Assembly (NCBI GenBank): GCA_963556145.1
Contig: OY744466.1
Coordinates: 4,960,001 to 5,024,000, forward strand
DNA: 64,000 bases
DNA from: Hygrocybe punicea
Taxonomy: Eukaryota > Basidiomycota > Agaricomycetes > Agaricales > Hygrophoraceae
Direction of reading: 5' to 3'
The position numbers and the translations under genes were made by a program. Numbering within the stretch: the stretch's first letter is position 1; each line of letters begins with the position of its first letter. This document shows positions 6,091-47,829 of the stretch, one piece after another. The notes below the pieces were generated by a model. That model did no database searches, was not told the origin of the DNA, and was given only the letters and a program-made list of their open reading frames with translations.

Positions 6091-6374
6091 TGTGCTAATG
6101 GGCTTGATCATTACTGGTTCACATTGCAAGGGGAAGGAAAACAACCATCACAGGTCAGATAGGAGTTGCATGCTTTAGATAAGCAGAGGTGAACTGCCAT
6201 CAAGAAGAAGACAAGCAAGCCATACTTGGAGGTAGAAGATGCTGAAGAGGACATTGAAGTATGAATATATATATATATGAATAAAAGAAAAAAAAGTATT
6301 GAATTGACAGCATAAATTGAACACTGATGTTACCAACAATGTTATAATTAGGAGAAGAATTAGGAGGGTATACA

Positions 6375-6732
6375 TATCCTGAAAACATCAGCCTGGACCA
6401 TTTCAGGTGGCCCAGAATATATCCCAAAAGCACCAGCCTAGACCAGTCCCAGTTGGCTGGGGAAAATATTAGCCTGGACCATGTTAGTTGGGCCAGGATA
6501 TATCCTGGGAACCCCAGCCTGGACCATCTCAGCTGGGCCAGGATATATCCTGGGAACATCAGCCTGGACCATGTTAGTTGGGTGAGGATATATCCTGGGA
6601 ACACCAGCCTGGACCATCTCAGTTGGGCCAGGATATATCCTGGGAACATCAGCCTGGACCATGTGAGTTGGGCCAGGATATATCCTGGAAACATCAGCCT
6701 GGACCATGTGAGTTGGGCCAGGATATATCTCA
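6375..6732. repeat. 45-bp minisatellite, right inverted-repeat arm
   Basis: About eight copies of the unit in the orientation CCTGGGAACATCAGCCTGGA CCATGTTAGTTGGGCCAGGA TATAT. This is the reverse complement of the array at 386-815. The palindromic core GGATATATCC recurs in each copy. Together with the unique stretch at 6735-6818 it forms the right end of the element. Confidence 0.9.
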
Positions 6733-6818
6733 GCCTGATTCAGCTATCCCCAAGCCAGTTGGGCAATCTCATTTTCAGGCATCCCAACTCAGTTGGTAAT
6801 ATCTTGCTGAATGCCCTG

Positions 6819-9852: not shown

Positions 9853-11688
9853 TTACTCGTAATAGTCAGCCACAATGTGAAATCTTGATACACGATCCAT
9901 CCTCCGCTGCTCAGAAAAAACAATATCCTCAAATTGGTGCCAAATGTGCATCCCATCAGGATCCACGAGCCAATGCCTCACATACACAGACTGAATCTGG
10001 TTGTACCCTACTTGGCGACACCTCAAATTGTGAAGTTGGAGACATGTCTCTAGCAAGTCAGCACAGTCTTCCTTGTGTTGGACAACCAGTGGGATTCGTA
10101 GCCGACCAAAAGAACCTTGAAGGGCACGGTTACTAGGGATGACCAAGGGTTGACATATGTGATAGGGTGAGATTTTCCAAGGGTTTTGAAGGGTTTGTTC
10201 TTGAATCATTATCTATTGCAGATAGTGATAGAAACTTGGTGGGAATTTCAAAGAGTTATATATTTTCTAGTTTCTCTCCAAAATTTAGGTCAGATTTCTT
10301 CAGTAGTTATTGTGCAGTTCCATTTTCAAAAAGGAGTGTTTTTCAAAAACCATAGGGGTCCGCGTTTTTCAACCCCTATGGTTTTTGAAAAACACTCCTT
10401 TTTGAAAATGGAACTGCACAATAACTACTGAAGAAATTTGACCTAAATTTTGGAGAGAAACTAGAAAATATATAACTCTTTGAAATTCCCACCAAGTTTC
10501 TATCACTATCTGCAATAGATAATGATTCAAGAACAAACCCTTCAAAACCCTTGGAAAATCTCACCCTATCACATATGTCAACCCTTACCCATCCCTAACG
10601 GTTACCCCATTCCGCAGTCTGCCGATATGACAAAAGCTGCCAGTGAAGTTTTAGATGCTTCTCAACTTCCTCCGGTGTCCCTACAACCTTGTCGCCTGAT
10701 CGAAATGGAGCGCAGATACGACCACCACTTTGGGCGCTCCCACCTCGAGAAAATGCCGTATCTGCGACAACATAAAATCCTGGTGGTGTTTGAGTCTGCA
10801 GCTTCTCGTATATTGGCAACGTGACACAGGAGTCGTGCCAACTTCCAGGAGCATTGAGGTTGGCTGCTATTATGGGCCCTGCATATGAAATGAGATGAAA
10901 ATGATCATACAAAAGACAAACAGACACTCACCGCTCAAAGAGAAGACAAACACAGAGCTGATGAAATGCTCACACTTCCAACCATTGTATGTAGCATTCT
11001 CAATCTCATGATCCTCTGACACCTGTACAGGAAAATTCAAACCATCAATACTGGCGAAGGCACCAACTAAAAGTGGATGGCACTTGAGAACGAGTTCGTT
11101 GTGATGCTGGAATTCGGAGAGCTCACGGAACCACGATATCTTGGCATCCTCCATATCACGGAGGGTTTCATGTAGAATGCACATTCCGAATATGATATAT
11201 TGGGATACTGTTGCAGGAATCAGGGCGAAAATCTGTTGCAAGCTGACTTCATGCATTGTCGAGCTGAGGTAATGAAGTACCAAGCCCAAGGCACCTTCGG
11301 CATCCAATGAATGACGTGCACCATGCGGTGTTGCGCTCACATTGACATCTCCACGGGGGATCGGTGTATTGTACCATCGTCGCCCAAATCCTTCGGCCAC
11401 AATGGCCTCAAATGTACAGACATCGAACCTCATGGTGGTGACATAGGCGCTTTCACTTCGACTCTCCCGTAACTGCACCCACGGAGTAGCAATGCGAGGA
11501 TTTGGGAGGAGCTGGGGGCAGCAGAGGTAGGGCCGTGAAGGTTGTCGGTGTTGTGCATGAAGAATGCGTGCTTGTTCTGCTCCGTTGATCACAAATGCAA
11601 GTGCCAATGTGACAAGGCATGCTTGATGGTTGTCTTCCATCTCGTTCTCGTTCTCCTCTTCTTCCTGTATCAGGCAATAACGGTCCAT
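9853..11688 (-). pseudogene. PIF/Harbinger (HARBI1-like) DDE nuclease, split by a MITE
   Basis: On the - strand the first exon (11688-10932) holds the helical N-terminus and the first catalytic Asp block VGAFASIDGLNFPVQ. A GTGAGT...CAG intron lies at 10879-10931. The second exon has LNAPGSWHDS, the second Asp in FYVVADTAFSRG, and the catalytic Glu in SYRQTAEWGNR. The frame is then cut by the 464-bp MITE at 10134-10597 and resumes exactly after the duplicated GTAACCGT as ALQGSFGRLRIPL, HNLRCRQVGYNQIQSVY, ending near 9853. Apart from the insertion it looks close to full length for DDE_Tnp_4 proteins. It was probably active until the MITE inserted. Confidence 0.85.
10134..10597. mobile_element. 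464-bp hairpin hAT-type MITE
   Basis: The ends TAGGGATG...(CC)ATCCCTA are inverted. The 8-bp direct repeat ACGGTTAC flanks it at 10126-10133 and 10598-10605, as expected for hAT elements. The two arms of about 220 bp are almost perfect reverse complements around GGGGTCCGCGTTTTTCAACC CC near 10355-10378. A transcript would fold into one long hairpin. It sits inside the Harbinger nuclease gene. Confidence 0.92.
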
Positions 11689-11836: not shown

Positions 11837-12132
11837 ATGCTGCGGAAATTCACCCAGTGGATTGATACATTCACTGTTGCCACTGCTTCAAGGTGCCTAG
11901 AGTGTAACAGCTGCCTACTTAGAAAATATTATTTTGTCCACAGCCCTTTGACACTTGCCTTTGATGTATCTGCACAAAATCTTGTCATAAGTCAGACTTT
12001 AACAGTGCCCATCAATGGTAATGATTTTACATATCAACTTAGAAGTATAATATATTATGCTTACAGCCATTTCACTGCCCGTGACATCACTCCTGTTGGT
12101 TTTGTTTGGTTTCATGATGGCGGTGCTTCCAT
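11837..12132 (+). pseudogene. orphan gene X2, 5' piece up to the CACTA insertion
   Basis: The frame reads KFTQWIDTFTVATAS, a CxxC pair (CLECNSC), then YQLRSIIYYAYSHFTARDI and GFVWFHDGG. The frame is 98 codons plus two bases long when it meets the CAT target duplication at 12130-12132. Resuming at 30765 completes an ATG codon and continues EYEGSLSSIENLYVGR to a stop. The pattern YxLRxIIY...HFTAR...WFHDG resembles the C-terminal box of ubiquitin-specific proteases, but that is a weak analogy. The N-terminal part is missing from the left flank. Related to X1 (39-306). Confidence 0.65.
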
Positions 12133-12632
12133 CACTGCTGACACCGCAATATTTTGCAGGATGCAAAATGATTGCAAAATGATTGGAAGCTTGTTAAAGT
12201 TTTGCATTTGATTTTAAACCGTGCAAAATCCAATTAAAATTTCACACATAATAACTCGTGAAATTCTATTTAAACACAAAGATTTGTGGGAATTTATCTC
12301 GACACAAAATTAATCAAATTCAAAAGTATTGTTCTGAGTGAAAATGTAGACAAAAGTGAAAGTTTTCCCATACCTTGTCAGCTGTCAAAATAATTGTAAA
12401 AAATATCAAATTCAATCAATTTTGCAAGACGTCAAAATCTTGTTTATTCAACCTCACCAAATGCAGAATTTTGGCCAAGGATTTTGCAAGTCACAACATT
12501 CCATATTTCACAATAAGATTTAGCCTTTGCAAAATATTTCGGAAATAAATCATTTTGCGTGGCCCACAATGCTTCGCGCACTCAAGTGTGTTGCTCATCA
12601 CACACTTAGCACACACTTAGTGAACACTTGAG
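12133..12632. repeat. left TIR of the CACTA element, about 500 bp
   Basis: It matches 30262-30761 in reverse complement over about 500 bases, with only scattered differences in the outer 430. The inner part carries repeated CACTCAAGTG / CACACTTAG / CACTTGAGTG motifs, like the subterminal binding-site repeats of CACTA elements. Confidence 0.92.
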
Positions 12633-12693
12633 TGCACGCCTGAGAGTGGAGTAAAGGTTTTTTATTTCATTCGCTAAGTAAGAGGACTAAAAT

Positions 12694-15233
12694 TTACGAC
12701 CCGCCGTGATCTTTGAGGAAACCTTTGGAAATGGAAGACATAGCCTGCTTAAGCTTGCGAGATTTGTGGTGCCCCCTTAATCGATCTCGCCATCGATGTT
12801 GAGGAAGTGGTGGCTCTCCCTTCTCAACTCTGGTCAACCACGTTTGGTAAACCATTTCAGACCACTCAGTCCAGCACCCATAGTTTTCTCCACTTGCATC
12901 ATACGTCCAGGGCAGAGGAAACCAAGACACCGTGGCGGTCTGGGCGCCATTGCCTAACAGGGAGCCCATCAGGTTTGGTAAATTAAAAGCACAAACATAC
13001 CGGTGTAACAGATATACGTCCCACAAAGTAAAAGGATCTCATCCTTGCTCAAGTCATCATCCCAGAGGCAATCAACCGAATTGCTATCTTGAACTGAGAA
13101 CCCATCCCGATGCAGGAGTACCGCAGATGACGGGCCTTGTAAGACGGTGTGGAAGCTTGTTTCCTGCACAGCCAGACGCCACAAAACCCCGCCTCGGAGA
13201 AGTGCTGCTCGACCCCCATGACCACTCAAGATCACGGCACGCTGGTGCAGATATGCATCATAGTCTCTTCTTGAGAATTTGCACCCGGAGAGTTGAATGG
13301 GAACGGTGGAGGGGTGGAATGACAACGAGCTGGGAATTTCCCTAAGGGGGTGAAGAGTTCGGAATTGAATTCCCCTCTGCAGAAGGTTTCGAGCAATGTC
13401 TACTTCCTGACACCCAGCATCCAATCTGCAGATGTAAAGCACATCAGCAGGTTGAGAGACGGCGATCTTCCATGGGACGGTCGCAGCTCGCCCAAAGTCA
13501 AAGAAATAAAGCCCAGACGGCAGACGGCGAAGGCGCTTGATGCGATATGTGAGGACCAGAGGCTGGCGGCTGTCCCGACTCAAGTCCCACAAAGGTTGCT
13601 CAGGTTGCAGACCCGAGACAAGGGCTTCAAAAAAATTTAAGGCAATCGCGCCGAGCCCCGTCATGAAGATGGGATCATCCTGTCATGTCAATCCGACTGC
13701 GCAAAGGAAGGCCTGTATGGCCTGGGGTTCCATGGGGCGAGCCAGATGGGGAACCGGTATTGGCGGCACGAATCCGTGGTGCATGGATAACAGGTGCACG
13801 ATTTCGTACATGTCCGGCGTTTCCTTCACGGGCTGAATGTCATCTGCCGTGAGGGGTGGCGACGGTGACCTCTGGGTTCGGATTCCAGGGTTGTGATCAG
13901 GATCTGGTTGAATCTCCTCTTGCCGTGGCCCCCAGAAATCCTCATCGTAATCATTGTCCTCGTTGTCGTGGTCATCCTCCGGCCCAAACTCCTCACAGCA
14001 GTCCCATTCATTCCAGAAAGCATCATAGTGTCGCTGATTTGCCCCATAATTCCCTAACATTTCTTCTCTCGCACTCCGCAGAACCGCCTTACATATGAGC
14101 TGCGAAGGAATCTCGTCGCTTTTGACCCATTCAAATACTTTCGTGCTAACGGTGGGTGGATTGCGCTCACGATTCAACCGAGTCTGACGAGCTGAAGGGG
14201 ATTCCTTCTCCAGCTTCTGAGCATTCATCCTTTCGCGCTCAGCAAAGAAGTCCTTCCACGTGGGCTGGGCCTTCATGGGATGGGTGCTGGAAAGAGCCGG
14301 GCTTGCTTGGTCCTGGAGGTCCTGTGAAGCTGAAGGTGCCGTGGTGAGGAGATGCGAAGATGCTGAGGGACCAGAGGTGAAGAAAGTGGTCACGTCCTGT
14401 AGTTTATGGGGAGGAGGAGCCAAACCCTGGAGCCAGGTGTGCTGGCGAACGGCTTGTGCTTCTTCCGCTCTCCAAGGATACCAAACAGGGACGTGGTAAT
14501 GACAGAACCACTCCACTGCTGGTTGCATTTTTTCGGGATCCAATAGGTCTAGGAAGACCCCTACGTGAGGAGCAAATGATGAAAAGGTGTGGACAGAAGA
14601 CGAAGCGACCCCGGCCAACCAGGACTGGTCAAAGCCAGCCTCTGCCAACCAGGTAAACCAGTCCGGGATGAGGGCGTCGCGGAAGTGTGACTCTCCTGCA
14701 GCCATGAGAAAGGAGAGGGCGGCCATGGAAACTACAAACCAGTCCCTCGAAATGATGGCACGCCATCGCGCAATGTAGTGGCTTTTGTGAGGTCGTCCAT
14801 AGCCCCATGCAGAGGGGTGCCAAGGCAGTAGGACAGCAATGGGGTATTTCTGCGCCAACAAGGCGATGGCGTGGACCAGCCTTTGCTCGAGCTGAAGCCA
14901 ATGGCTGGCGAGGTAGGGACGAAGGCGGAATCCCCCCTCCTCCTTCTTGAGGGGCGGCATGTGGGCGAGGCGGTCGAATGGATAGCCACTGAATGAGGGA
15001 TGGACCGGCAAGAAGCTCAGATAACCGAACGCCGAGGTCCACCACCGGGGATGTTGGTAATCCTGCAGGCGGCCAGGCGATCAGGTCTGGAAAACGTTGG
15101 TCGTGAGGAGGTGAGGCGGTTTGGGTGGAGGAGGGGATATACTGCGGGAGGAATTGGGGGAGTAGTAAAGCACCCCGTTCAGGAGGTGCGCCCGTCCTTC
15201 AGAGTGGTCCAGCGGCTGTGGTGGAGCAGACAT
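12694..15233 (-). pseudogene. orphan protein A (transposon-associated, about 830 aa)
   Basis: The likely start is ATG 15233 (MSAPPQPLDHSEG). A frameshift near 15075 separates FPDLIAWPP from RLQDYQHPRWWTSAFGYLSF. A long frame then holds HWLQLEQRLVHAIALLAQKY, WGYGRPHKSHYIARW, SRDWFVVSMAALSF, an acidic linker (DDHDNEDNDYDED) and FVPPIPVPHLARP. An in-frame TGA at 13683-13685 follows. The same frame continues LYFFDFGRAATVPWKIAV, ADVLYICRLDAGCQEVD, GRAALLRGGVLWRLAV and ILLLCGTYICYTG, then a GTATGT intron, then NYGCWTEWSEMVYQTWL to 12694. This domain order is a large agaricomycete orphan family that recurs with mobile elements. No catalytic motif is known to me. Two lesions suggest loss of function. 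It is preceded by upstream cassette copy 1. Confidence 0.7.
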
Positions 15234-15299
15234 GACGTCCAAATAACCAACACAAGGGATGAGGTGATGGCGGGAAAAGTACGCAGGATTGAAGGGCGT

Positions 15300-15960
15300 G
15301 GCAAGATCAGGGCGAAGAAGGAAGGCGTGTCTGGGAGCCCAAAACACGCTTGGGAAACTGAAGACCTGACCGGGAGGAGCACTAAGGTACAGGAAGTGGG
15401 ATTGGTGTCTGGGAGCCCAAAACACGTTAGATAGATGATGGAGGAGGCAGCGGGCGCGTGTCTGGGAACCCAAAACACGCTGAGGAGAAGGAGAAAAAAA
15501 CAAAAAGCCCCAATAAGGCGAGCCCACCCAAACAAAGACAAACAACCAAAAAAGGTCTCAACGCCTTGCCTTCTAAGTTCTTCATCAGCGTCTTATGGGT
15601 TCCCAGAGACGCTGAGCCCACCCCTCATTCCCTCGTCCGTCGCATGACCCGGGAACGTTTGCCATCTGCCCCCCGTCACTTTGCTCGAACCGCTGGCCGT
15701 ACGTCCTCGCTCACCAAATCTTCAGCGTCTTATGGGTTCCCAGAGACGCTGAGTCAGCTCCTCACTCTGTCCCTTTCGCTCACTAAGTCTTTCCCTCATT
15801 CCTTTTCCTCATTCTCTCGTCTTCAAGTCGCCCGGGGACGTTCACCATTCACCTGTCGAATCACGCCATCCTCGCTCACCAAATCTTCAGTGTCTTATGG
15901 GTTCCCAGAGACGCTGAGTCGGCTCCTCACTCCCCTTCTTTGCTTCAGTCACGCAAGTAC
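15300..15960 (-). promoter_or_regulatory. shared upstream cassette, copy 1 (ahead of gene A)
   Basis: This stretch, read on the - strand, matches 19068-19480 and 25041-25455 almost base for base in its central 400 bases. It ends just before gene A. It contains six interrupted palindromes: three of the form CGTGTCTGGGA(A/G)CCCAAAACACG (near 15328, 15400, 15455) and three of the form GCGTCTTATGGGTTCCCAGA GACGC (near 15588, 15726, 15887). Its orientation relative to the downstream gene is the same as for the other two copies. A promoter or transposase-binding role is inferred, not shown. Confidence 0.7.
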
Positions 15961-16199
15961 TTCATTTCATTATCATGCCGTGCACTTTAGTACAAGTCGT
16001 TCTACGCCTCCACGATCTCTGCTGTTCCTTCAACAATCACTAGCTTTCTCAGTCCCAACAGTTGCCTAAGTTTGTCTTTGTCCATGTCGGCGAACGGCGT
16101 CCATGGGTCTTCGAGTTTCTTCTCGAAGACGAGCATTTTGTGCAATTCGAGGTTCTCCTGAATGACGGCGGCGACCGATCCCGCACCCTACCTATGCTA

Positions 16200-17860
16200 T
16201 CAGATCAAGAAAGAGCGAGATGGATCAAATGTACCTGCACCAATGGCGACATCCAAAAATTTGATGTCAGGTATAGAATCAAGAACAAAACCAACCCATT
16301 TAGCACGACCAACCGGTCTGAGAGCGTATGGTCCTAGTCTACCTTCTTACGTTTGTTGGTGGCCTGCTTGGTCTGAGACAGTGAGTACTGAGTGCATATG
16401 GGCATACATGGATACTCACTGGTTTCTCCCAGATGCATATGTCGAAACAATTTCTGACGAGCCAGAGGCAATGAGATGACGCTCAGGAGAGGAGATGGCC
16501 TGAATCCAATCTAATGAAGAGACTTAAGTTGACTTCTCATTGGTTTACGTACCTCAACTGTCTGAATCAACGCCTGGCCTGAATTCATCTCCATTCATTA
16601 TTGCTGTGCAGTTTGACTGATGAACAACTCACCTCCGTCGTGATGCAAGGTCTGGACAACCCCTTCTGAATTTGTGTTGAAGAGGTAGACATTACCGTGA
16701 TCACTTCCACATACGACCACATTGGCCTGCTCGGCGAAAACCCCCTTCTTCACATATCTTCGAGTGACTGCCATGCTGAAGGATCGCACGGGAGAAGTCC
16801 GAGTTATGTTATATAAATCAAATCCCATGCTCAAGTTGTCAACGAGGACGAAATTTTCTGATGGGCAGACACTAGCATTCCCTCTATGAAATTCACCTCA
16901 GTTTGCTGGACGTTTTTCACATCAAATCACTCACATGCCAGACTTGAACACCTTGGACCATTTCTTGACGGATGTCTCTGCATCTCGACAGGAACTAGCC
17001 AAACGAGGATCAGCAGGACGCTGTGGCCAGTATATACGTTCACTCACACTTCTCCGGACTCCAAACTGAACACCAATAGGTTCTGATAGCCACTCGTGAA
17101 GTGGATAGCGCGAGGGATGGTCAGGTCCAGCATGTGCTTATTCCATAGGCTCGTGAGAGTACCTGTATTTATCTAAGCATTCTTTTGAAGTTTCCTTTAC
17201 TCCGAACTCACCGTTCTTCTCCAGGCAATAAACCTGAACCTGACCATAGTGACTCGATGTTGCGAGTTGGCTGCGTGTTGGATCAAATGCCAGGGCCTCG
17301 ACACTGTCACTAACGGCAAATGCGCGGGTGTTCAACAACTCCAAGAACTTGCCCTGATCTTCATCAGTGCCACCGTTGAATGAAATGAGGGGTATACTCA
17401 CCCCAAACCTGCTTTGGCGATATACTGACACCATTCCTCTTCCAGTTCCGAAGCAAAGTGTTTCGCCCGTGACTCCAGCTTCTGAAGCTAGCCACTTTAT
17501 ACAGGTGATTTGCCCCCACTTTCCTCCGTTGTCATGGATCACCTGGATGCATTTGTATTTTTCTAAGATCCAAACCTGAATGGCTTCGTCATCTCCTACA
17601 TCACGTCATCAGTGCTGTGTTCCCAAGTCACTGGTCTCCCTACCTCCACTTGCAAGTTGTTCACCATCGTGAGCGAAGGCAAAGCAGTTGACGGCCGCAG
17701 TGTGGCCAGCAAGCCGTCTAGCTAGTCGATATTGCTGTCTGGAAATAAGGCAATGAATAAGCTTGGAGGAACCAGACGTACATCTTTTTGCACAAAAATT
17801 TGATCCCAAATTTCTTGAATGGTTGACGGCATGAAAGAGTATTAGGACTTTCTGCACTGA
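16200..17860 (-). CDS. WD40-repeat protein B
   Basis: Several exons on the - strand. The first visible one has LARRLAGHTAAVNCFAFAHD followed by GEQLASGG, with an intron and then GDDEAIQVWILEKYKCIQVI. Next come WGQITCIKWLASEAG, ETLCFGTGRGMVSVY and VEALAFDPTRSQLATSSHYG. The distal part has NMSMGFDLYNITRTSPVRSF, VVVCGSDHGNVYLFN and, near 16460, HLIASGSSE. The GH...W(D)-type spacing marks a WD40 propeller. The exact start and 3' end are uncertain, and the stretch 16840-17137 is hard to read through. A closely related copy lies at 52160-52672 beside another E-type gene. Such proteins act as scaffolds; no partner can be named. Confidence 0.7.
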
Positions 17861-18086
17861 CGGCGTATTCAGTATATATACTCAAAATATATAATTGTGT
17901 TCTCCATTCTTTTGTGAGGATGAACAATATCATTCTGTTGTGACGTCGTGTTGGCACGCTTACGAGAACATAACAAGGACACAAATAGTTCACCATTTAG
18001 AGAATTATCATACAGAAAATGACTCAAAGGGGAACAAGGATCATAAATAATAAATAGGGACTCCACGAAAGTGCACCTCAGAAATA

Positions 18087-18905
18087 ATGCAGACCGCTGG
18101 TATTATTTGCCGACATCTACCACTCATCACAGGACGTATTATATTCACAACCCAGAGACTTCCTGACCCACCAATGATCACCCCACGGATGGATTTTTAC
18201 GCAGAAGAGCGAGACTTGACCTCCTTGGCAAAGGAACAAAGCGAATGCAGCGATGAAGCCATGTCGGAACTATCCGTTCTAGAAAGTGACGAGGAACCCA
18301 TCAGCGGTCACAAAATCCCTAAACCACCAGGTGAGGCAGGCCGCCCAGGCAGTGGTGGTTACAACTTGAAAGATGTGCTGGGATGGGCCAAGGCAGAATT
18401 TGACCAAGTGCAGGTAGCATGAATATTGCGTGATGAATTGAAAAAAAGGAGTTGACTTCGAGTCGTAGAAATGCCTCCGCTCCCAAGCCAACGAGAAGCT
18501 GAGCTGGGATAAAAGCTATGCACATCAAAAAGACAGCACGATACGTGCCATTTGTCTTCAAGTAAGCAACTAACCTCAGCTAAACTTGCCCTCAGGAGCT
18601 CACACACTGCACAGGCATCCAAAAAGCATCCGATTTTAGACCAATACGTCAACCATTGGCCAGTCCGGTCTATGCTGAAACTTCACCTCAAGTACACCTC
18701 AGAGTCGGCTCGACGCACGAAGGAGAAGGCCATCGCCAAGAAGGTGGAGCAAGTCGTTGGAAAGGCGGTCGCCGTGAGAAAGGCCCTTCCCAAAAGGAAA
18801 GGAGCAGTGACAGAGAGAGACCAGGAGGACAAGGATGACAATGACAATGACAATGACAATGGCGATGGCGATGGCGACGATGGCGACGGCGAGGAGATGG
18901 CTTAA
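18087..18905 (+). CDS. orphan protein C (GEAGRPGSGGYNL family)
   Basis: Three exons, 18087-18413, 18469-18561 and 18615-18905, all with GT-AG borders, give 236 uninterrupted codons. Acidic serine-rich N-terminus (SELSVLESDEE), then the signature GEAGRPGSGGYNLKDVLGW, a helical segment (QKCLRSQANEKLSW), KHPILDQYVNHWPV, LKLHLKYTSESARR, a Lys-rich stretch and an Asp-rich tail ending DGDGEEMA. This signature is an orphan family often found next to transposons in agaricomycetes. The basic/acidic pattern suggests a nucleic-acid- or chromatin-associated factor (inference). It diverges from WD40 gene B over about 230 bp. An earlier or later Met is possible. Confidence 0.7.
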
Positions 18906-19734
18906 GTTTCTAGAGATCGTCATTTTTAAATTTGTACGATCGGAACCGGTATGCAGCTAAGAAAGAGGTCGAGGTGTGGGTCCGTTTCCAAACGATGTGT
19001 AGTATGAAAATGAAGCGTTTGCGTGACTGAAGCAAAGAAGGGACGTAAGGCCAGCAGTTTGAGTGATTCAACGGGGTGAATGGCGCACGTTCCCGGGCAA
19101 CGCGACAGATGAGGGAGTGAGGAGCTGACTCAGCGTCTCTGGGAACCCATAAGACGCTGAAGATTTGGTGAGCGAGGACGTACGGCCAGCGGTTCGAGCA
19201 AAGTGACGGGGGGCAGATGGCAAACGTTCCCGGGTCATGCGACGGACGAGGGAATGAGAGGTGGGCTCAGCATCTCTGGGAACCCATAAGACACTGATGA
19301 AGAACTTAGAAGGCAAGGCGTTGAGACCTTTTTTGGTTGTTTGTCTTTGTTTGGGTGGGCTCACCTTATTGGGGCTTTTTGTTTTTTTCTCCTTCTCCTC
19401 AGCGTGTTTTGGGTTCCCAGACACGCGCCCGCTGCCTCCTCCATCATCTATCTAACGTGTTTTGGGCTCCCAGACACGTTGTTCGCTTCCTCTTCCACCA
19501 GTGCTCCCCCCGGATTCCCCGTTACGCGTCAGCGCCCCCGGATTCCTCCCTACGCGGCTTCGGCGTGGTCTCATTGCCCCATTCCTGCGCATGAGTGCTT
19601 TTTTTTCTGCCGGCCTCTCACCGCTCGTTGGGCCACTCAGGGATCAACCCTGGGACCAAGTGGGCCAGCAAGCTTTGAGACGCCGCAGATGCTTGGCCGA
19701 AGTCCTGCTCCTGAGCTCACGATCTTTTCTCCAG
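18881..19734 (+). promoter_or_regulatory. shared upstream cassette, copy 2 (ahead of TET/JBP)
   Basis: It runs from the tail of gene C (GGCGAGGAGATGGCTTAAGT) through TCTAGAGATCGTCATTTTTA to CTCACGATCTTTTCTCCAGA. It matches 24840-25709 with only scattered substitutions. The 3' end of the duplication extends into the first codons of TET/JBP. It includes four interrupted palindromes near 19131, 19268, 19403 and 19459. Near identity implies recent duplication or continuing gene conversion. Confidence 0.75.
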
Positions 19735-21232
19735 ATGCTCTGGTTTCCCCGCGCTCAACTGGTAAGCCTCCCACCCTTTGGGAAACCCTGGCTGACGTTG
19801 CCAGTAGACCCGCTCGGGCAGGCCCTTCTCTCCTTATGGCGTTTCCCCTCTTCCCTGCCCAGATTCTGTCGATTTCGGCCGCCTTTTGGAGGAGGCCACT
19901 TTGCGCGACTCCGAAGAATTGGAGGAAGAAGGCACCGAGGTCGATGCCATCGGAGTCGCGGCAAAACGTCCCCCCTCACCCCAATGGCTGGAAGCGCCCA
20001 AGGCGAAACGAGTTTGACAGAACAACCCGCAAGTGCCAGCATTCTCCACCTCTCGGCAACACGCGAAACGCCGCCGCCAGCGGGAGGCAGGCCGCCAGCT
20101 CAATGGACATGTGCCGCGAGCCAAGTCCCTAAAAGCACACGTGCAACCTGCCACCCCGGTCTTCACTGCCCTGGCAATGGAGGGCCTTCCTGCGATGTCT
20201 TGCAGCTACCAGGCGGTCCCAAAGAGCTTTTTGGATGCGCAGAAGGCTTATACGCTGCTGGAATTGATGAGCTTGGGGCTTCGTTTGATTCACTGGGATG
20301 GCTAGTGAGCACTTGATGTTCTTGACCTGAAATAGGAGGCTTATTCCACTGCAGTGAGTCACGGCCCATTTACGACCTGCAGAAGCAAATCATCGCATGC
20401 CTGGCGGGGCAGCCGCGCGACCTGACCTATGCAGCTCCTGTAGAGGCCGTCTATCTATTCTTCTTGCTTGTAGCTGAGAATGCCCAGCTCAAGCCTTCAG
20501 TGCATGCTCATGGGCCATTTCCTGTCCTCAATGTGGGGATTACACATAGCCTGGGCACAACGAGGCCAGTCCGGGTGAACAATCGTGAGCACACTTGGGC
20601 GGCTGAGTCGCTGTTAGGCAATCCACACCTCCAGCGACTAGCAAGCTCGGCCAGCGGTGAGTCCTGGGGCCATCATCTAGGGAACTGCGTTTTGACCTCA
20701 TACTCCAGCTGCTTTTGCCCTGTGGGCACCCAAAATTTACCAGTACTACCGAAGCCATTTGGAACCACTTTACTCTCAGATGCCTCATCTCCACCGGAAC
20801 TTCAATGGCGGCATCTTCCCAAGCGCGGCCTTCAATTTTGGGCCCAACATCTGGACATTTAAGCACCGGGACAGCATGAACTGTCTATTTGGATGGTGTG
20901 CTATCCAGGCTTTGGGTCACTTCGATCCCAAAGCTGGAGGCCACCTAATTCTGTGGGATCTAGGGTTGGTCATAGAATTTCCCCCTGGTGCTCTAATCCT
21001 AATCCCATCAGCCACCCTCACACACTCGAACGTCCCAGTGCAGCCTGGTGATACCCGGGCATCCTTCACCCAGTATTGTGCGGGTGGTCTTTTTCGCTAC
21101 GTCGACAATGGTTTCCGAACAGAGGCCCAATTGCGTGATGAGGATCCTGCTGCCCTGGCTCAGGCACTAGAGATGAAGAAAACTCGTTGGGAAATGGGCC
21201 TTGGACTTTCAGCACCCTGGATGAATTGTTGA
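19689..21232 (+). CDS. fungal TET/JBP-family 5-methylcytosine dioxygenase (one premature TGA)
   Basis: Four exons (19689-19761, 19863-20304, 20355-20656, 20709-21232), all GT-AG, give 447 in-phase codons. The N-terminal part is charged and basic (RQHAKRRRQREAGRQL). The catalytic double-stranded beta-helix follows: AAFNFGPNIWTFKHRDSMN holds the iron ligands H325 and D327, then FGWCAIQALG, GGHLILWDLGLVIEFPPGA, the distal iron ligand H378 in SATLTHSNVPV, and R389 in RASFTQYCAGGLFRYVDNGF to bind 2-oxoglutarate. These are the signature residues of basidiomycete TET/JBP proteins, which oxidise 5-methylcytosine in DNA. Codon 76 is TGA (20015-20017, after AKRV), upstream of the catalytic domain. The last residues appear shifted by one base (GLGLSAPWMNC). 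The start chosen is the first in-phase ATG before exon 1's donor; an upstream start inside the cassette is possible. Confidence 0.9.
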
Positions 21233-22198: not shown

Positions 22199-24449
22199 AT
22201 GTTTAGCATGTTGAGATTTTCGGCTACTGCTACTACCGCTGCTGCTGCTGCTGCTGCTACTGCTACACCTGTAACTGCGCCAGCTATGGGAGCAAGCTCC
22301 GGGCCCGATGCCACCATCCAGGTGAGAACCGCTGAATCCACCAGAAATCTAACATATCTGATCCGTCTTTATACCTGCAGCCACCACCGCCCAACGACCC
22401 CATCGAGGTAGGTGCTGGTTGTAAGCAGGACCACTCAGGCCACCAGGACCAGTCAGGCCACCAGGCCATGCAGACGGATCCAATCAACGGTGGATCCGGC
22501 AGTGGGACTGCAACATTAGCAGCTGGGCCACAACTTCGACACCCTAGCCCAGCAGGGAGTGAATCCAATGACAGCGGCCGACGACGTGGTCAGGTGAGAT
22601 GTGTCTTTCTGGTTCACTTGCAGTCAGTGCTGAAGGTAGTGGGAAGAGTTCTGCACAGAAGGTAATGGTCGTCGAACAAGAGTGTTTACAAACCAGGAAT
22701 CGGTTGGCAGAACATGAGGCCACAATCGAGCAGTTGCGTTTCGAGGTAAGCTGTGCTCCAGCGTTTGGGATGGCAACTCATGGAGGCACCTCAGCTAAAA
22801 AAACTTCAACAAGACATCCCGGCATTCGTTGACGCACTTGAGGAACGATTGAGAGTAGCAGAAAGTGCAGCTCAACTGGCCGAAAAACGGGCGCAGCAGG
22901 CGGAACAGGTACTTCAGAATGCTCAGCAGGCCAGGAGCAGCCATCGCGGTGCAGAAATGCCACAGGATATTTGTGATGGTGATGACGTGGTTATGAAAGA
23001 GGCTGCACAGGGTGGAGAGGAGCCCCAGGTAGAGTCCAATGATGACCATCATATGGTGAGAACCAAGAAATAAAACTAGCTGATGACTTATTTGTCGACC
23101 CAGGGTGCTCCGAATGATAATTCAGCGCAAAATGTGCCGCCGCCGATGCTGTTTTCAAGGCCACGGGCAGGGGCAGGACCTACCCTCAAGGCCACGTTCA
23201 AGCCACAGCCACTCTTTCACCCCTCGGCTTCACCTGAGCCAAATGTGTTGCCGCAGAAACAGGTTGGCACCAGGTCATCAAATTAATCCCTGCTGATGAA
23301 CCTGCCAATAGCCAGAAATGTTAGAGCAGAAAATGGACTGGTTGCTCGCCAGTGTTCAAGAACTGAAGTTTGGATGGCCTCAGCCAGGCGCCCCTAGGCC
23401 TCGAACAACCCGAAGACTGCCAGCCCACCGATTTAAGCCAGCACCAATGAGAAACCGCAGCCCCTTAAGAACCGGGAAACTGGTGAGTTGCTTCACACTG
23501 CAGGCGATGAAATGCCAAACCAGAACTTGCAGAAAGATGTTCGAACTGCCATGAACAATCTGTTGGGCATTGAACATGACAAAGACGCATTGCGCATCCT
23601 TCCTCCACCACCGGACGACCTTGACTGGTATGAAGATGACCGGGGTGGACCAGGACCCTCCATATGCCCCATGACGCCTGACTGGGGCAATCTCCGTGGA
23701 GAATGGAACTACCGACTATATGAATTGTTCATCGGTTACGTTGAAGCGCCACCTCCTGATGGCTGTGGATATGCCTTGGATGAGGAGAGTTGCGTTGAAA
23801 TTCACGAGATGTTCTTCGGGCGATTGTATCGCCTCAAGCGGGAGATCCAGGCTGCATCCCCCAAATCTGGAGAGAGAGAACACCAAACCAGGGAATGCCT
23901 TGCCCAGGCCAAGAAGTCTGCCTTGACGTGGCAAAGGCCGAACACAAGACGCAAACAGGTGAGCAAATCCTCACACATGGCGTAGCATAAATGCCAATCA
24001 ACGGATAGCTGTTCGACAGCAGGCTCGAAATCACACTGAGCAACAGAACGACACCCTCTGGAGAGATTGACACAGCTTGGAATTGCATGTACGAGGTCGT
24101 TGACCAACTTGATGCCCAGGGCATGAGCTCAGACGAAAGCGATAACGACGAAGCAGGCAGAAAAGTCTATGTTGCAAGAAAGAAGGCTTGGCATGATAAG
24201 GAAATTACAAGACTCCTGAGGTTAGTCGATCGGGATTACAACACGAAAAATTGCTACGGCAACACCAGGGCTGGGAATCCCCCCCGCCATCGTGTGGTTC
24301 GAGGAGGAAAGGAGAGCAGGCGCGAGGCACCTCCTGGCCTGCCGTTGAATTTCTATGATCGGAACTGGTATGCAGAGCTGACAAACCGGGAGAAGAAAGA
24401 GCTTGGGGCCACGAAAGAGGTCGAAATGCCAGACATCATGGAGGCGTAG
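22199..24449 (+). CDS. orphan protein E (GMSSDESD family), multi-exon
   Basis: It starts MFSMLRFSATATTAAAAAAA at 22199. At least seven exons with clear borders follow (for example donor after DATIQ at 22321, acceptors at 22380 and 23509). A coiled-coil middle (LEERLRVAESAAQLAEKRAQ) and a Pro-rich linker precede the conserved part: LLGIEHDKDALRILPPPPDD, MTPDWGNLRGEWNYRL, EIHEMFFGRLYRLKRE, LDAQGMSSDESDNDE, LLRLVDRDYNTKNCYGNTRA, GLPLNFYDRNWYAELTNREK, ending PDIMEA. No internal stop was found. A relative (E2) lies at 35577-50745. The family recurs with agaricomycete transposons; no biochemical role is known to me. Position between TET/JBP and transposase suggests an accessory mobility or DNA-binding factor (inference). 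Confidence 0.75.
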
Positions 24450-24839
24450 GTCCGTTTCTGAATAATCTGTACTAATTGATATGAATATGGAGCATTTGCA
24501 TGACTAAGGCAAGGTTTACCAAAAGAGAATGAGGAGCCGGGAACGACGCTGAGGACTTGGTGAGCGAGAACTTAAGGCCAGCGGTTCGGGGGTAAATGCG
24601 AACGTTCCCAGGCAACCCAAAGTACGAGGGAATGAGTGGTAGGCTCAGCATCTCTGGGAACCCCTAAGACGATGAGGACTCAGTGGGCGAGGACACGTAA
24701 GGCCAGCAGTTCGAGTGATTCAATGGGGTGAATGGCGAACGTTCCTGGGCGACTTGAAGACGAGGGAATGAGGAAAAGGAATGAGGAAAAGACTTAGTAA
24801 GTGAAAGGGACAAGGGAACGAGCAGTCGGCTCAGATGGC
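24450..24839 (+). repeat. degenerate remnants of the upstream cassette
   Basis: It contains scrambled pieces of the cassette: AGGCCAGCGGTTCG, GAACGTTCCCAGGCAACC and CAGCATCTCTGGGAACCCCT AAGACG near 24648. It lies directly before the intact copy 3, so the intergenic block seems to have grown by repeated local duplication. Confidence 0.6.
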
Positions 24840-25709
24840 GACAATAGCGATGGCGAGGAGATGACTTAAGTTTCTAGAGATCGTCATTTTTAAATTTGTA
24901 CGATTGGAACCGGTATGCAGCTAAGAAAGAGGTCGAAATCGTGGAGGCATGGGTCCGTTTCCAAACAATGTGTAGTATGAAAATGAAGCGTTTGCGTGAC
25001 TGAAGCAAAGAAGGGACGTAAGGCCAGCAGTTGAAGTGATTCAACAGGGCGAATGGCGCACGTTCCCAGGCAACGCGACAGATGAGGGAGTGAGGAGCTG
25101 ACTCAGCGTCTCTGGGAACCCATAAGACGCTGAAGATTTGGTGAGTGAGGACATACGGCCAGCGGTTCGAGCAAAGTGACGGGGGGCAGATGGCAAACGT
25201 TCCCGGGTCATGTGACGGACGAGGGAATGAGGGGTGGGCTCAGCGTCTCTGGGAACCCATAAGACACTGATGAAGAACTTAGAAGGCAAGGCGTTGAGAC
25301 CTTTTTTGGTTGTTTGTCTTTGTTTGGGTGGGCTCGCCTTATTGGGGCTTTTTGTTTTTTTCTCCTTCTCCTCAGCGTGTTTTGGGTTCCCAGACACGCG
25401 CCCGCTGCCTCCTCCATCATCTATCTAACGTGTTTTGGGCTCCCAGACACGTTGTTCACTTCCTCTTCCACCAGTGCTCCCCCCGGATTCCCCGTTACGC
25501 GTCAGCGCCCCCGGATTCCTCCCTACGCGGCTTTGGCGTGGTCTCATCACCCCATTCCTGCGCGTGAGTGCTTTTTTTTCTGCCGGCCTCTCGCCGCTCG
25601 TTGGGCCACTCAGGGATCAACCCTGGGACCAAGTGGGCCAGCGAGCTTTGATACACCACAGATGCTTGGCCAAAGTCCTGCTCCTGAGCTCACGATCTTT
25701 TTCTCCAGA
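24840..25709 (+). promoter_or_regulatory. shared upstream cassette, copy 3 (ahead of the transposase)
   Basis: Near-identical to 18881-19734, starting with GGCGAGGAGATGACTTAAGT and ending CTCACGATCTTTTTCTCCAG. It carries interrupted palindromes near 25104, 25242, 25377 and 25432, with another (ACATGTTTTGGGCTCCCCAG) just after it at 25720. The transposase ATG follows at 25894. Role inferred as for copies 1 and 2. Confidence 0.75.
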
Positions 25710-25893
25710 CTCGCACCCTGACATGTTTTGGGCTCCCCAGACACCAATCCCACTTCCTGTACCTCAGTGCTCCTCCCGGATTCCTCGTTACGTGGCTTTG
25801 GCGTCCAAGGACGGGTCTTCTTGCTCTATTTCCCGAGCCATACCCCCTCGTCTGAGTTGCCAAGAACCACCGCTTTCGCCTCATTAGCTCCGC

Positions 25894-28800
25894 ATGCCGA
25901 CCTGCTTCTGTGCCTCCTTCGGGTGTGCCACGAAGGGAGGCCTCGACCCCACGACGAATTCTCCACAAGGAGTACCAGTGGACCACCGCACCTTCAAATC
26001 CCACCAGCTCCAAGACCGTGCCACAATTGCTCGCGATGCCACCCGGCGCGCCATAGATGCCCGCGATGCCGACATCGCCCAATACATGGCATCCATGACC
26101 CTCGCAGACCAAGTTTCCAGGGCGTTTACTCAACCAGGCGGACGGCTTTGGTCCAAATCCAACCCAGCTTCACAAGGTTCGGCGATGACCTCGCAGAATT
26201 TATCACTCGGTTTGCCAGAACCCTCAATCGCAGCAGACCGCCCCCACGTTCGCCCCCATGCTCCGAAAGCGCCCGGCCCCTCCAGTCCCCAACCCTCTCA
26301 ACACAGCCGAGTGGATTCACACATCCGTCGCCTGGTCGGGATCGAGGCGTCTGTGAAGGACTTGGCTCGGAAGGTCTCCCTAGCCCTCACGGAACTACGA
26401 AACCACCCTGGGGAGCTGCCATCGCCCCCTCCTTTGAATCCGCTGTTGTCAACCTGCACCGAGCTCCGAAATCAATTGGACGCTGTCAAAGGGAAGCAAG
26501 CTGCGGTGGTTGAAACCAAGAGGTCCATTGGCGAGCGACTGGATGAAGTCCAGCATCAGCTGGACCAAGGCAAACAGGAGTGGAAACAGAAATTGGCACA
26601 GCACCGCAGGGAGGTGATCCACGAACTGAAAACCGACCATCACTTTACACCCTTCCTTCAGCATGTCGACCCCATTCTTCAAGTCTCCCTTTTTTTGGTA
26701 GTTGCCTGCCAGGTGGTGCTGAACGTTGGGCGTCGCGGATGCCATTTCATGCTTTCAATGCTGCAGTACGTCGTCCAGCTCACCCTGATGAGGGCTGGGC
26801 CCCGCCTTTCACCTCGAGAACAAAAGCTTATGTCCGACTTTCCGGTCGATCCTCGCTCCGCCGTGGACCACTTTCATCTGGATGGGAAGAGCGTCATTTA
26901 TGCGGTCTGCCCGAATCCGAAATGTCACCGCACCTACAAGCCGACTTTCAAAGGCGACTCACCCATTGCTCAATACCCACAACGCTGCACTCACTGGGAG
27001 TTTCATGGCGGCCCACATTGCAAGGAACGCTTGACCAAGCCCCAGGCGATTATGGGTGAGGAGATCCAGGTTCCCATCAAAACATTTGTTTCCTTTGACT
27101 TCAAGGACTGGGTAGCTGGGCTGACTTCTCGACCTGGGTTGGAGGATTGCATGGATTCTTCCTGGACAAGGAAAGCTGGCAGTGTGGATGAAATGCACGA
27201 CATTTTTGACGGCACATTCCTTCGTGAATTCCAAGGCCCTGACAAGCAGCATTTCAGCATTGGGGGTGACGAAGGCCGCTACGTATTTAGTCTTTGTGTC
27301 GACTTCTTCAACCCGTATACCAATAAACAGGCCAGAAAGAAGGCTTCCATTGGCCTCATATCCCTGGTCTGCCTCAACCTTCCCCCTGAATTGCGTTACA
27401 AGCCAGAGAACATGTTTTTGGCTGGCATCATTCCTGGCCCCAAAGAACCTCCACTCGCTGCAATCAACCATTACCTGACCCCACTCATCGATGACTTCTT
27501 GGACTTTTTGGTGACTGGGGTCAGATTCTCGCGCACTCACCGCCATCCTGGTGGCCGACTGGTGCGCTGTGCACTGGTCGTAGTGATCTGTGACCTCCCC
27601 GCTGCAAGAAAAGTGGGGGGATTTGCTGCTTTCTCTCATGATCACTTCTGCTCCATCTGTCATTGCACTCGAGCCACGCATGGCTATGGAAACACGGACT
27701 ACGACTCTTGGATCCGACGCTCCGATGCCGACTGCTGGGCTTGCGCTGAACAGTACCGCAGTGCAGGTGATGAGAAGGCGAGACAGGCACTCTTCGACAA
27801 GTCAGGCATTCGTTGGTCGGAATTACTTCGACTGCCTTATTTCAACATTGCCCGCTGTGTGGTAGTTGATGGCATGCACAACCTCTTCCTGGGCTTGATC
27901 AAAGAGCACTTTGAAGGGATTCTTGGCATTCACCTGAAAAAAGCGGAGGAACTGCCAGTGGTACCAATCGAATTTTCTTCCACTTGGCAGGAATTCTCTC
28001 CCAATGAGCAGAAGAGCGTCCAAAAGCTTCAGAAATACCTACAAGGCCCCATGACAGCTGAACTGGTGGCCGACCGCCCGAAGATTGTCCAAAAGTTCAT
28101 GAGATGCCATGCGCGTGCCCTTGAATTTACCTGTGCCGAGCTCAAGTGCCCAGCGGTGGATTTGGACCTGCATCGAAAGGCTTCAAAAATTGACCGGGTT
28201 GATGCCATCCTCGCCTGGGTAGGTTGCCCTTCCTGGCTACCTGAATGGCTTGCTTATCTTCACCCCACAGCGTCAAGTTCAACCAGAAAAGCGAGAGACT
28301 GGTGCCAACACATCAACTGCCCATGGCCATGTATTGACGACGGAGGAGATGGAGGAGATCTGGTCTGATATCAGGAATATGGTGACACCAAGCTGGGTGA
28401 CTTCGGTTCCCCAGAATTTGGGCTCTTCCGCTCATGGAAAGGTAAAGGCAGATCAATGGCGGGTACTGGGAATGACCTATTTGCCCGTGTCACTCGTTCG
28501 CCTTTGGACTATAGTCCACGGTGGGAATGAGCGCTCAGAACGATGCAGCAAGATTCTTTCCATCACCATATCCCTTCTTTCAGCCATAGTCATTGTCTCT
28601 TCTCGAGTAACCTCCCACCGCCATGCTGGCCTGTACCTGCAGCATTTGCAGTCATACCTTCACGGGATCCAGGAGTTGTTCCCCGAATACCATTTCCACC
28701 CAAATCATCATGTGGCGTTTCATTTACATGAGTACCTGTTACTCTATGGCCCTCTCCACGCATGGTGGACATTTCCTTTTGAGCGGATTATCGGTACGCT

Positions 28801-30160
28801 TCAGCGAATTCCTACCAGCAGCAAAATGGGTGAGCACTGCAGTAAGTAACCTGTAGGCCCCAAATGTACTGATAAACTCGTAGGTGAATTAGAGGAGACC
28901 TTGTCCAGGTCATATACTGGATCTGCAAACCTACGCAGCATTTTATGCAAATCCCAGTGCCCACAAGCCCTGCAACATTGCCAAGTAATGTTTGAGAAGC
29001 TTTTGAACCCCCAGGTTCGCGACTCACTCATCACCGACATGCTCACTGCATCCTTGGGCTGGGACGTGACCAATGAAGAAGATGCAGCTACTTGGAATGA
29101 AAACACAGCCCGCTCTATGCCTGCAGGCCTCCGTCATGCTCTGGCTGTGTCCTTAGGCTCTGACCCGCCAAAGAAGGCACAGCTTCTCTCCCATCTGACG
29201 GTCCATGGCATCACCTATACCGTGTCATCTAAACATGAGGGTAATTCCTGCATTCTTGTACAGATGGAGTGTCATATCCCATGCAGCTCCGCTGGATTCC
29301 GACGAACTCCGCTCCGGACTTTTCCGCCGACTTATCTTATCTTATCTTATCTTATCTTCTCGCGTACGTTATTGTTCTTCTCTTGTTAAATACTATTCTT
29401 CCCCATCTCCGTTTACTCCGACCTCCTTTTCTCTTCCTCCCCTTTGTTTACTTGTCACCGTACATAGCAACCTTTTATCCCTTTTATTTTCTTCCGAACT
29501 CCGGTCCTCTTTCCGGAGTTCATATTGTCTTCACGTCTCCAAGGACATGACAATTAGTTTACCAAGTATATAAACTAGAACTACAATGTCCTGTAACTCC
29601 GTTCAGAAAATCAACTTGAGTTCCTTATTTCTTACCCACTCTCAAACTTAAGGCTTTCCCTTAAGCTCATTAGTTATCTTAGTACTTAGTTCGGAACTCC
29701 GGACTAACTCCGCTCCGTCCACGTCTTCTCAATACGACTTAAGGAAGTAGTGAACCTACTTCAAGAGTTGACGTCTCCGCTCCTCCGAAGAACTCCGATC
29801 CTTCCGGAGTTGCACGCCTCTAACACGGAGGTGGAAAGTGATCCAGTTCCGGCTCGCATTGAATACATTGTGCAACTGCCCACCCCACAAGGCATAGCTA
29901 CCCACGTCGCCATCCAACGCCTTAGGCCTGCATCAGCAGTTGATGATCCGTTTGAGGTCTTTCCCATACTCCGTGCTCGAATGTGGGGTGTGCAACTGGC
30001 TGATCTGGAAATCATCTCCATAAATCACATCCATGCCCACTTCACCTACCTGTTATCAAACTGGGAGGAGCAGGATGTCAAGGTCGTTATATCAATGTCG
30101 CGTGTAAGCAGCCATATCCTGCCTTGGTGAATGGTGCTGACTCAACTTCAGGTGTATTGA
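25894..30160 (+). CDS. CACTA tnp2-type (Plavaka) transposase, interrupted by a solo LTR
   Basis: The start MPTCFCASFGCATKGG has the Cys-rich opening usual for Plavaka proteins. Exons are 25894-28218, 28271-28829, 28884-29269, 29831-30103 and 30152-30160. With the LTR (29270-29830 including one target copy) removed they give exactly 1184 codons with no stop. Motifs in order: a zinc-binding CPNPKCHRTYKP...C block, MDSSWTRKAGSVDEMHDIFD, FLAGIIPGPKEPP, FSHDHFCSICHCTRATHGYG, SGIRWSELLRLPYFNIARCV, VVDGMHNLFLGLIKEHFEGI, HLHEYLLLYGPLHAWWTFPF, ERIIGTLQRIPTSSKMGELE and a C-terminal PVPARIEYIVQLP domain. These match the Transposase_21 (tnp2) family. It would cut and join the CACTA ends at 12133 and 30761. 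Only the LTR insertion disables it. Confidence 0.93.
29270..29825. mobile_element. 556-bp solo LTR inside the transposase gene
   Basis: It begins TGTCATATCC and ends CTCTAACA (TG...CA). It is flanked by TGGAG (29265-29269) and CGGAG (29826-29830), a 5-bp duplication with one mismatch. It contains four TCTTA steps near 29335, a TATATAAAC box near 29569 and many ACTCCG/CGGAGT steps, and no coding frame. Excision leaves the transposase frame continuous (ILVQME then VESDPVPAR), so it entered an intact gene. Confidence 0.8.
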
Positions 30161-30261
30161 TCTGCCAGCACAGGTTTTAGGGCCCAATTAGTTGTATGAC
30201 GTAGCATTAAATTAAATGAATATCAAGGCGTCATCCATGTGTGAATGTTATCATTTTGTCA

Positions 30262-30761
30262 CTCAAGTGCCTCCTTAGTGTGTGCTGAGTGTGTGATCAG
30301 TGACACGCTTGAGTGTGTGAAGCATTATGGGCCATGCAAAATGATTTAGTTCCGAAATATTTTGCAAAGGCTAAATCTTATTGTGAAATATGGAATGTTG
30401 TGACTTGCAAAATCCTTGGCCAAAATTCTGCATTTGGTGAGGTTGAATAAACAAGATTTTGACGTCTTGCAAAATTGATTGAATTTGATATTTTTTACAA
30501 TTATTTTGACAGCTGACAAGGTATGGGAAAACTTTCACTTTTGTCTACATTTTCACTCAGAACAATACTTTTGAATTTGATTAATTTTGTGTCGAGATAA
30601 ATTCCCACAAATCTTTGTGTTTAAATAGAATTTCACGAGTTATTATGTGTGAAATTTTAATTGGATTTTGCACGGTTTAAAATCAAATGCAAAACTTTAA
30701 CAAGCTTCCAATCATTTTGCAATCATTTTGCATCCTGTAAAATAGTGCGGTGTCAGCAGTG
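30262..30761. repeat. right TIR of the CACTA element, about 500 bp
   Basis: Reverse complement of 12133-12632. It ends TGCGGTGTCAGCAGTG at 30761, followed by the duplicated CAT. Confidence 0.92.
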
Positions 30762-30764
30762 CAT

Positions 30765-40425: not shown

Positions 40426-40459
40426 CAACAGCAGCGATGTCAAAGCTATCATATACATG

Positions 40460-43946: not shown

Positions 43947-44014
43947 TCTGAACTGGACAGTCTTGTGAGCACAAACTGAAATGGAGTGGAGAGCGGGAAC
44001 GACATCAAGCTCAC

Positions 44015-47643: not shown

Positions 47644-47829
47644 GAATGGACTAATATAGTTAGGTTGATCGGTCAGATTGAGCTGCGGCTCTTATATCCC
47701 CTGATTGGTAAGGACAATGTTTAGTTTGTTGGTAGAATTTTATGCAGATATGTGGGTGAATACAATGGACAAGTAATGTCTGGGAGAATAAAAGTCCTCT
47801 GGGACATACCAGATGGTACAGATGTAAGA

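Follow-up and report, generated by a model that had tools for sequence, protein, structure and literature searches.

The window element and its genes

We analysed a stretch of 64,000 nucleotides of Hygrocybe punicea (contig OY744466.1, positions 4,960,001 to 5,024,000; hereafter the window), in which an 18.6-kb CACTA/EnSpm DNA transposon carries a gene of the TET/JBP dioxygenase type together with a tnp2 transposase gene (Table 1). The element is enclosed by a pair of terminal inverted repeats (TIRs) of 502 bp which are 97% complementary, and a 3-bp target site duplication, CAT, was found on either side of it. It runs from CACTGCTGACACC to GGTGTCAGCAGTG, starting with CACTG and ending with CAGTG, and its long inverted repeats have the CAC..GTG termini (CACTGCTG...CAGCAGTG) which, like the 3-bp duplication, characterize CACTA/EnSpm elements. 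An initial annotation of this DNA had described TET and tnp2 genes between TIRs of about 500 bp with exact CACTA ends; the repeats and the transposase were borne out, and the termini are of the CACTA/EnSpm type although their letters are CACTG and not CACTA. CACTA/EnSpm elements have subterminal repeats which are bound by an accessory protein.

The first long open reading frame (ORF) of the tnp2 gene matched PF02992 (Transposase_21), as expected of CACTA/EnSpm, with 49 bits (cut-off 28.6) while the Plavaka transposase domain PF18759 reached 14.4 bits (cut-off 26.3), and because of these scores the element was classed as CACTA/EnSpm and not as Plavaka, a label the annotation had also offered. 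Plavaka termini are described as TGT..ACA or CATCA..TGATG (Kojima 2025, PMC12730594), and the CACTG..CAGTG ends agree with neither. The parts between the TIRs follow the order gene A (-), P1 (-), a WD40-like gene (-) with gene B (+), P2 (+), TET (+), gene C (+), P3 (+) and tnp2 (+), where gene A, gene B, gene C and P module are names coined in this analysis. Homologues of the 465-aa ORF of gene A carry Pfam PF28437; the Pfam matches of the WD40-like gene were weak and all under cut-off.

Table 1. Parts of the element and its flanks, in window coordinates
Feature	Position	Strand	Remarks
Left target site duplication CAT	12130..12132	.	flanking sequence
Left TIR, CACTGCTGACACC...	12133..12634	+	repeat comparison, terminus reading
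Gene A, unassigned function	12972..15080	-	ORFs 13686-15080 and 12972-13682
Putative leader module P1, preceding gene A	15386..15767	-	
WD40-like gene and small gene B	15940..18905	.	WD40-like (-) ~16000-17850, gene B (+) ~18180-18905; limits approximate
Putative leader module P2, preceding TET	18870..19735	+	core 19115-19496
TET/JBP-type dioxygenase gene	19689..21231	+	conserved exons ~19862-20304, 20355-20656, 20709-21231; TGA 20016-20018
Gene C, unassigned function	22200..24449	+	recognisable ORFs 23437-23985, 24009-24449; left limit approximate
Putative leader module P3, preceding tnp2	24834..25709	+	core 25088-25469
tnp2 transposase gene	25888..30130	+	first long ORF 25888-28368, exon-like stretches further downstream (tentative gene model)
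Insertion of 555 bp in 3' part of tnp2 gene	29270..29824	.	flanks ATGGAG/ACGGAG; absent in E2 and E6
Right TIR	30260..30761	-	
Right target site duplication CAT	30762..30764	.	

The TET-like gene of the window contains the HxD...H iron ligands and the 2-oxoglutarate-binding arginine of the family (FKHRD...LTHSN...TRASF; H, D at +2, H at +53 and R at +64), with the spacing of the four signature residues that the initial annotation had given. In 51 homologues H, D and H were invariant and R was present in at least 90%. By sequence alone the assignment to TET is weak, and it was made from homologues and structure. No Pfam match was obtained with the catalytic exon by itself, a sequence search of the PDB gave no match for the window TET and a PDB profile search gave five chance matches with no dioxygenase among them; one of the 120 homologues listed (P0108, 46% identical) carries precomputed PF12851. 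Structural comparison showed a double-stranded beta-helix fold most like that of TET enzymes, the best matches being 5-methylcytosine (5mC) oxygenases with CcTet first, at 12-15% identity in the structural alignments. When the window-type profile was compared by hhalign with the profile of the genome's PF12851-type copies the catalytic motifs were in register (E 8e-4, probability 24%).

Two further positions distinguish the window TET, which has Asn at H+5 and Cys at H+11, each invariant in the 51 homologues. In the three PF12851-type copies of this genome that were aligned, Gly and Asp occupy these positions, and CcTet has Gly331 and Asp337 there (PMC11040006). Since it has Asn at H+5, Cys at H+11 and HxD, the window TET is neither AG nor PE in Kojima's terms, the AG type having Gly/Ser at H+5 with Asp at H+11 and the PE type having HxE; the D of HxD is invariant in the 51 homologues. 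Kojima's PU type is the one that groups with sequences of Pucciniomycetes. H+5 corresponds to Asn1387 of hTet2, Asp234 of NgTet1 and Asp350 of CMD1, which are said to bind N4 of 5mC and to block N6-methyladenine (6mA) (PMC11040006), and this one residue, Asn as in human TET2, suggests that the enzyme would act on 5mC rather than 6mA.

The window element is a relic, with a premature stop in TET and the 555-bp insertion in tnp2. In the TET model starting from ATG 19689 the N-terminal linker is interrupted by the TGA, which shares the frame of the homologous part; relative to sister copies one nucleotide is also deleted near the C-terminus, which alters the last residues. The gene retains the catalytic residues which the annotation had named, but its frame is broken. 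The TET stops in the window copy and its sisters are TGA codons at places where CGA stands in another copy, a change of CpG to TpG, and E4, E6 and E7 each contain one or more of this kind. The 317-aa TET model used for searches was the longest open piece and not the native protein, because ATG 20177 reads ACG in three sister copies of the same subfamily.

Putative leader modules and copies in the genome

Three near-identical modules precede genes of the element, P1 gene A, P2 TET and P3 tnp2. When the genome was searched with P3, 23 full-length copies with at least 94% identity turned up, all within these elements, as well as two nearly full-length copies of 80% identity on C39 which adjoined a more distant gene A relative (C-numbers are contig labels; E1 is the window element and E2, E4, E6, E7 and E9 are other copies in the same genome). 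The simplest reading is that P comprises a putative promoter and 5' leader common to gene A, TET and tnp2. The modules were 98.2-99.7% identical within one element and 95.7-99.2% between elements, ranges which overlap; P is by and large more alike within than between elements, as gene conversion predicts, and on the simplest reading gene conversion keeps the modules alike. In E9 the P modules of tnp2 and gene A were 95% alike and ~70-80% identical to those of the window element, while the TET leader was short and not homogenised. Palindromes of the form TGGG(C/T)TCCCA were confined to the modules and their surroundings, 14/14 in the window lying in P modules or within ~140 bp of the cores and 10/10 in E9 lying at its three P sites.

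The window element, E2 and the part of E6 that was read consist of the same parts, in which cassettes have been turned round at the P modules; E2 also lacks the block of TET and gene C between P modules. On the simplest reading TET would have been removed by an exchange of P2 with P3, which are direct copies.

The search of the 92.2-Mb genome for further TIR copies, as the initial annotation had proposed, scored 40 of 57 candidates, so that counts are lower bounds, and gave at least 43 matches. Matching 3-bp duplications were found at six of the nine TIR pairs with both ends read. Nine elements have full-length P modules, five of them with TET and three P modules each (C8, C41 twice, C36, C3) and four lacking TET with two P modules each (C36 twice, C2, C40); a single TIR match belongs to the C40 element, and the left TIR of the second C36 element lacking TET is split in two pieces. 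The TIRs at C2:4272028 and C2:4337948 share an identical 10-bp outer flank in inverted order, as if a single end of an element were present twice through a large inverted duplication and the pair did not delimit one insertion.

Linkage of TET to the TIRs was counted at loci taken from a search of the genome with the TET protein, one match per locus being entered. In the close clade (15 loci, 62-99% identical, 14 of which reach at least 72%, with C6:2864519 entered on a 45-residue match of 62%) 11 loci had a TIR match within 12 kb and one further locus was inside a TIR pair. In the distant clade (31 loci, 42-55% identical) a single locus had a TIR match within 12 kb, and it lay outside the neighbouring element. 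The corresponding figure for PF12851 loci was one in 66 (the best 66 of 122 listed). C40:5615575 was placed in the distant clade on a 49% match (a short overlapping piece is 70% identical) and if moved to the close clade would make that count 11/16; secondary exon pieces were left out, as were the N-terminal piece C39:5557682, which is enclosed by a TIR pair, and the three poorest matches (33-34%). The counts support a TET/JBP-type gene as an inherited component of this CACTA family, and the annotation's view of TET as CACTA cargo holds at the family level. Carriage of the close clade by KDZ elements was disfavoured by the same comparison; distances to KDZ elements are upper bounds, as 150 of 429 KDZ candidates were scored and a part of the matches was listed. 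Searches for tnp2 and gene A homologues returned mostly unnamed or metagenome proteins, and locus tags gave no linkage signal in other species.

The TET copy at C1:2551290-2551796 is a fragment or was moved by another vehicle. Loci of the distant clade are bunched in few stretches per contig, e.g. six at C6:2306933-2683406 and five at C36:4495217-4832222, as might be expected of centromere-like regions; at three of these loci which were read, a Pfam scan of ten ORFs found no tnp2 and no KDZ.

Age, selection and CpG decay

E9 (C35:3850787-3873125) represents a second subfamily which is 71-81% identical to the window element but 90% identical in the gene A region; the two TIRs of E9 are 98% alike and its ATT duplications match. 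It is colinear with the window element, TET included, and because this holds in so diverged a copy the TET-containing state is older than the copies lacking TET. The 90% identity of the gene A end extends over C35:3870011-3873127 and window 12131-15234, the rest of the subfamilies differing by 19-29%, and synonymous divergence (dS) between subfamilies was 0.19 for gene A, 0.71 for tnp2 and 1.18 for TET, as if the gene A end had been exchanged between the subfamilies at P.

Ratios of nonsynonymous to synonymous divergence (dN/dS) were calculated by the Nei-Gojobori method with stop codons skipped, and they are rough, since dS is in many cases close to 1 or higher. For TET they were 0.11-0.15 between subfamilies over 309-344 codons (E9, C3:5682795 and C40:4715782 against E1, E4, E6 and E7; no TIR lies near the C40 locus) and all comparisons with C1:2551290 gave 0.13-0.19. 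The E1-E9 comparison gave 0.16 for tnp2 (772 codons), 0.22 for gene A and 0.29 for gene C. TET therefore appears to be an old, selected component, its ratio between subfamilies being as low as that of the transposase. Within subfamilies the ratios were higher, TET reaching 0.64 for E4 against E6 and E7 and 0.37-0.57 inside the other subfamily, and tnp2 reaching 0.51 (E1-E2) and 1.13 (E1-E6).

Alignment of E1, E2 and E6 in pairs revealed C/T differences at 474 of 2910 CpG sites and at 108 of 12549 other C sites, a ~19-fold difference. The base preceding the CpG had little effect (ACG 0.19, GCG 0.16, TCG 0.16, CCG 0.14) and repeat-induced point mutation with a TCG preference was not seen. By region the fraction of CpG sites differing ranged from 0.12 to 0.41; P2 and P3 stood near the top (0.29-0.41), and the minimum came from P1 compared with E6 (0.12, 3/25). 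In these element copies the skew is probably the trace of 5mC deamination, which supports the premise that the host methylates the elements. Hypermutation has been reported as undetected in Agaricomycotina (cited by Kojima 2025, PMC12730594), and the skew found here bears on that report.

Proposed role of TET and its alternatives

We consider it probable that a CACTA element here keeps an old, selected TET-type 5mC dioxygenase behind the leader of its transposase, and that the two would be made together, the predicted eraser countering CpG methylation by the host and helping the element to escape silencing. We infer that methylation would be erased from the element itself. Recombination between P modules would invert cassettes and delete TET, and copies lacking TET could use the eraser in trans. 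A fuller version is put forward tentatively and with somewhat more doubt than confidence: one recombining leader, subject to gene conversion, would drive the transposase, TET and a third gene, tie the eraser to transposition and act as the joint for inversion and for TET loss, which would leave hitchhikers without TET, and the TET would be a further type beside PU, AG and PE, acting on 5mC and not on both 5mC and 6mA like CcTet.

We have to set several observations against the proposed eraser role. The window TET scored 15.6 bits (E 0.0098) against PF12851, whose cut-off is 34.9, and no open TET frame was found among the aligned copies of the window subfamily, E1, E4, E6 and E7 each having at least one premature stop. 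Against the window copy TET dN/dS was 1.37 for E6, 1.38 for E7 and 1.12 for E4. The leader role of P is read from sequence, and protection of P from CpG decay was sought and not seen, 0.28-0.41 of the sites having changed in five of six P comparisons. Matching duplications were missing at three of the nine TIR pairs (two on C41 and C2:4272028/4337948), three of the 15 close-clade loci had no TIR match nearby, and at C1:2551290, where 21.5 kb were read, the tail of the P leader was present with no tnp2, gene A or TIR. TET is missing from four of the nine elements with full-length P modules.

That four elements live without TET, that copies of the window subfamily are decaying at dN/dS near or above 1 and that the genome holds many other TET genes (at least 122 PF12851 matches) would all suit a mere passenger, a KDZ-borne or host TET captured once by chance and carried without benefit to the CACTA element. 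This is quite improbable given that TET is colinear in the diverged subfamily, has between subfamilies a dN/dS like that of tnp2 and shares its leader with tnp2, and given the rarity of PF12851-type copies near this TIR. We regard as highly improbable a nested arrangement in which the P modules would be the ends of a mobile unit containing TET, with the CACTA element as merely the present address of that unit: P stands in front of tnp2 and gene A too, every full-length copy of at least 94% lies inside these elements with the two 80% copies beside the distant gene A relative, the modules resemble each other within elements as under gene conversion despite the overlapping ranges, and the state with TET is the older one. 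It would nevertheless account for the near-identical P repeats, direct and inverted, around TET and for the difference of one P module plus cassette between elements with and without TET. The initial annotation would have given up its reading on finding TIR copies lacking TET together with transposon ends of TET's own; such copies do exist, as counted above, but own ends of TET were not seen, TET being bounded by P modules whose ends were given no dedicated search.

The enzyme could also have another job, such as hypermodifying DNA bases as CMD1 does, acting on 6mA or RNA, or serving the host genome at large. Its distance from assayed TETs, in both the structural alignments and the hhalign comparison with the PF12851 type, would allow this, as would the lack of visible protection of the element, and Kojima 2025 (PMC12730594) leaves other activities possible for divergent types. 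Such a job is nonetheless rather unlikely, as the Asn at H+5 matches hTet2 Asn1387, said to bind N4 of 5mC and to clash with 6mA (PMC11040006), the best structural matches are 5mC oxygenases and the element bears the marks of CpG deamination.

The proposed eraser role has precedents. Eleven lineages of TET-bearing DNA transposons are described in Kojima 2025 (PMC12730594), where escape from silencing was proposed, and they include TET-bearing EnSpm in Agaricus bisporus and Puccinia striiformis as well as Plavaka, so that the CACTA/Plavaka carrier is not the new vehicle which the initial annotation supposed. According to the same source AG-type TET occurs on Kyakuja and Zisupton only, EnSpm and Plavaka of Agaricales carry the PE type, and the association of TET with Plavaka is credited to Iyer 2014. 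The fungal EnSpm/Plavaka elements resemble ours in CAC..GTG ends, 3-bp duplications, an EnSpm-type transposase, the TET/JBP gene and the proposed escape role (PMC12730594), but those of Agaricales carry the PE type with HxE whereas ours combines HxD with an Asn (H+5) and a Cys (H+11). The shared leader, the cassette inversions and the selection test are from the present analysis, and no mention of them was found in the parts of Kojima 2025 consulted (PMC12730594); neither a shared leader nor a comparable selection test was found in the literature searched, as judged by titles and the start of abstracts.

KDZ elements (Kyakuja) that bear TET of the AG type, CcTet of Coprinopsis cinerea among them, likewise combine a transposon-borne TET in agarics with the same fold, but they have a transposase of another superfamily and, unlike the window gene, have Gly/Ser at H+5 with Asp at H+11. 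Human TET2 and Naegleria NgTet1 share the fold, HxD..H..R and an Asn/Asp at H+5 reported to bind 5mC; they are host genes and not transposon cargo, and are 14-15% identical to the window TET. TnpA of maize Spm is a transposon-encoded, sequence-specific DNA-binding protein which counters the silencing of its element. VANC of Arabidopsis VANDAL is described as another transposon-encoded protein that counters its own silencing, as a sequence-specific DNA-binding protein where we predict a methyl-oxidising enzyme (PMC5735166, PMC10398659). What is new here is the type of TET, the proposed recombining leader common to three genes, the conservation of the gene set and the evidence from selection and CpG sites. 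Whether transposon-borne TETs serve the transposon is a question of which this family offers a test, through a TET dN/dS between subfamilies as low as that of the transposase, a common leader and a defined loss which provides natural elements with and without TET in one genome.

The window also contains a complete-looking KDZ element (39176-49112) with 1037-bp inverted repeats which are 99% complementary, a 7-bp duplication GCTCGTA, a KDZ transposase (190.7 bits) and a CxC1 domain. Neither PF12851 nor the TET protein search gave a match in it, and the same window therefore holds a CACTA element with TET and a KDZ element without. Arrays of a 45-bp tandem repeat were found at 302-858 and 6374-6812, in inverted order and ~5.8 kb apart. 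Near-perfect palindromes were present at 3061-3702, 10134-10597 and 61387-62235, with arms of 287, 226 and 415 nt that are 97-98% complementary and have 12-68 nt between them.
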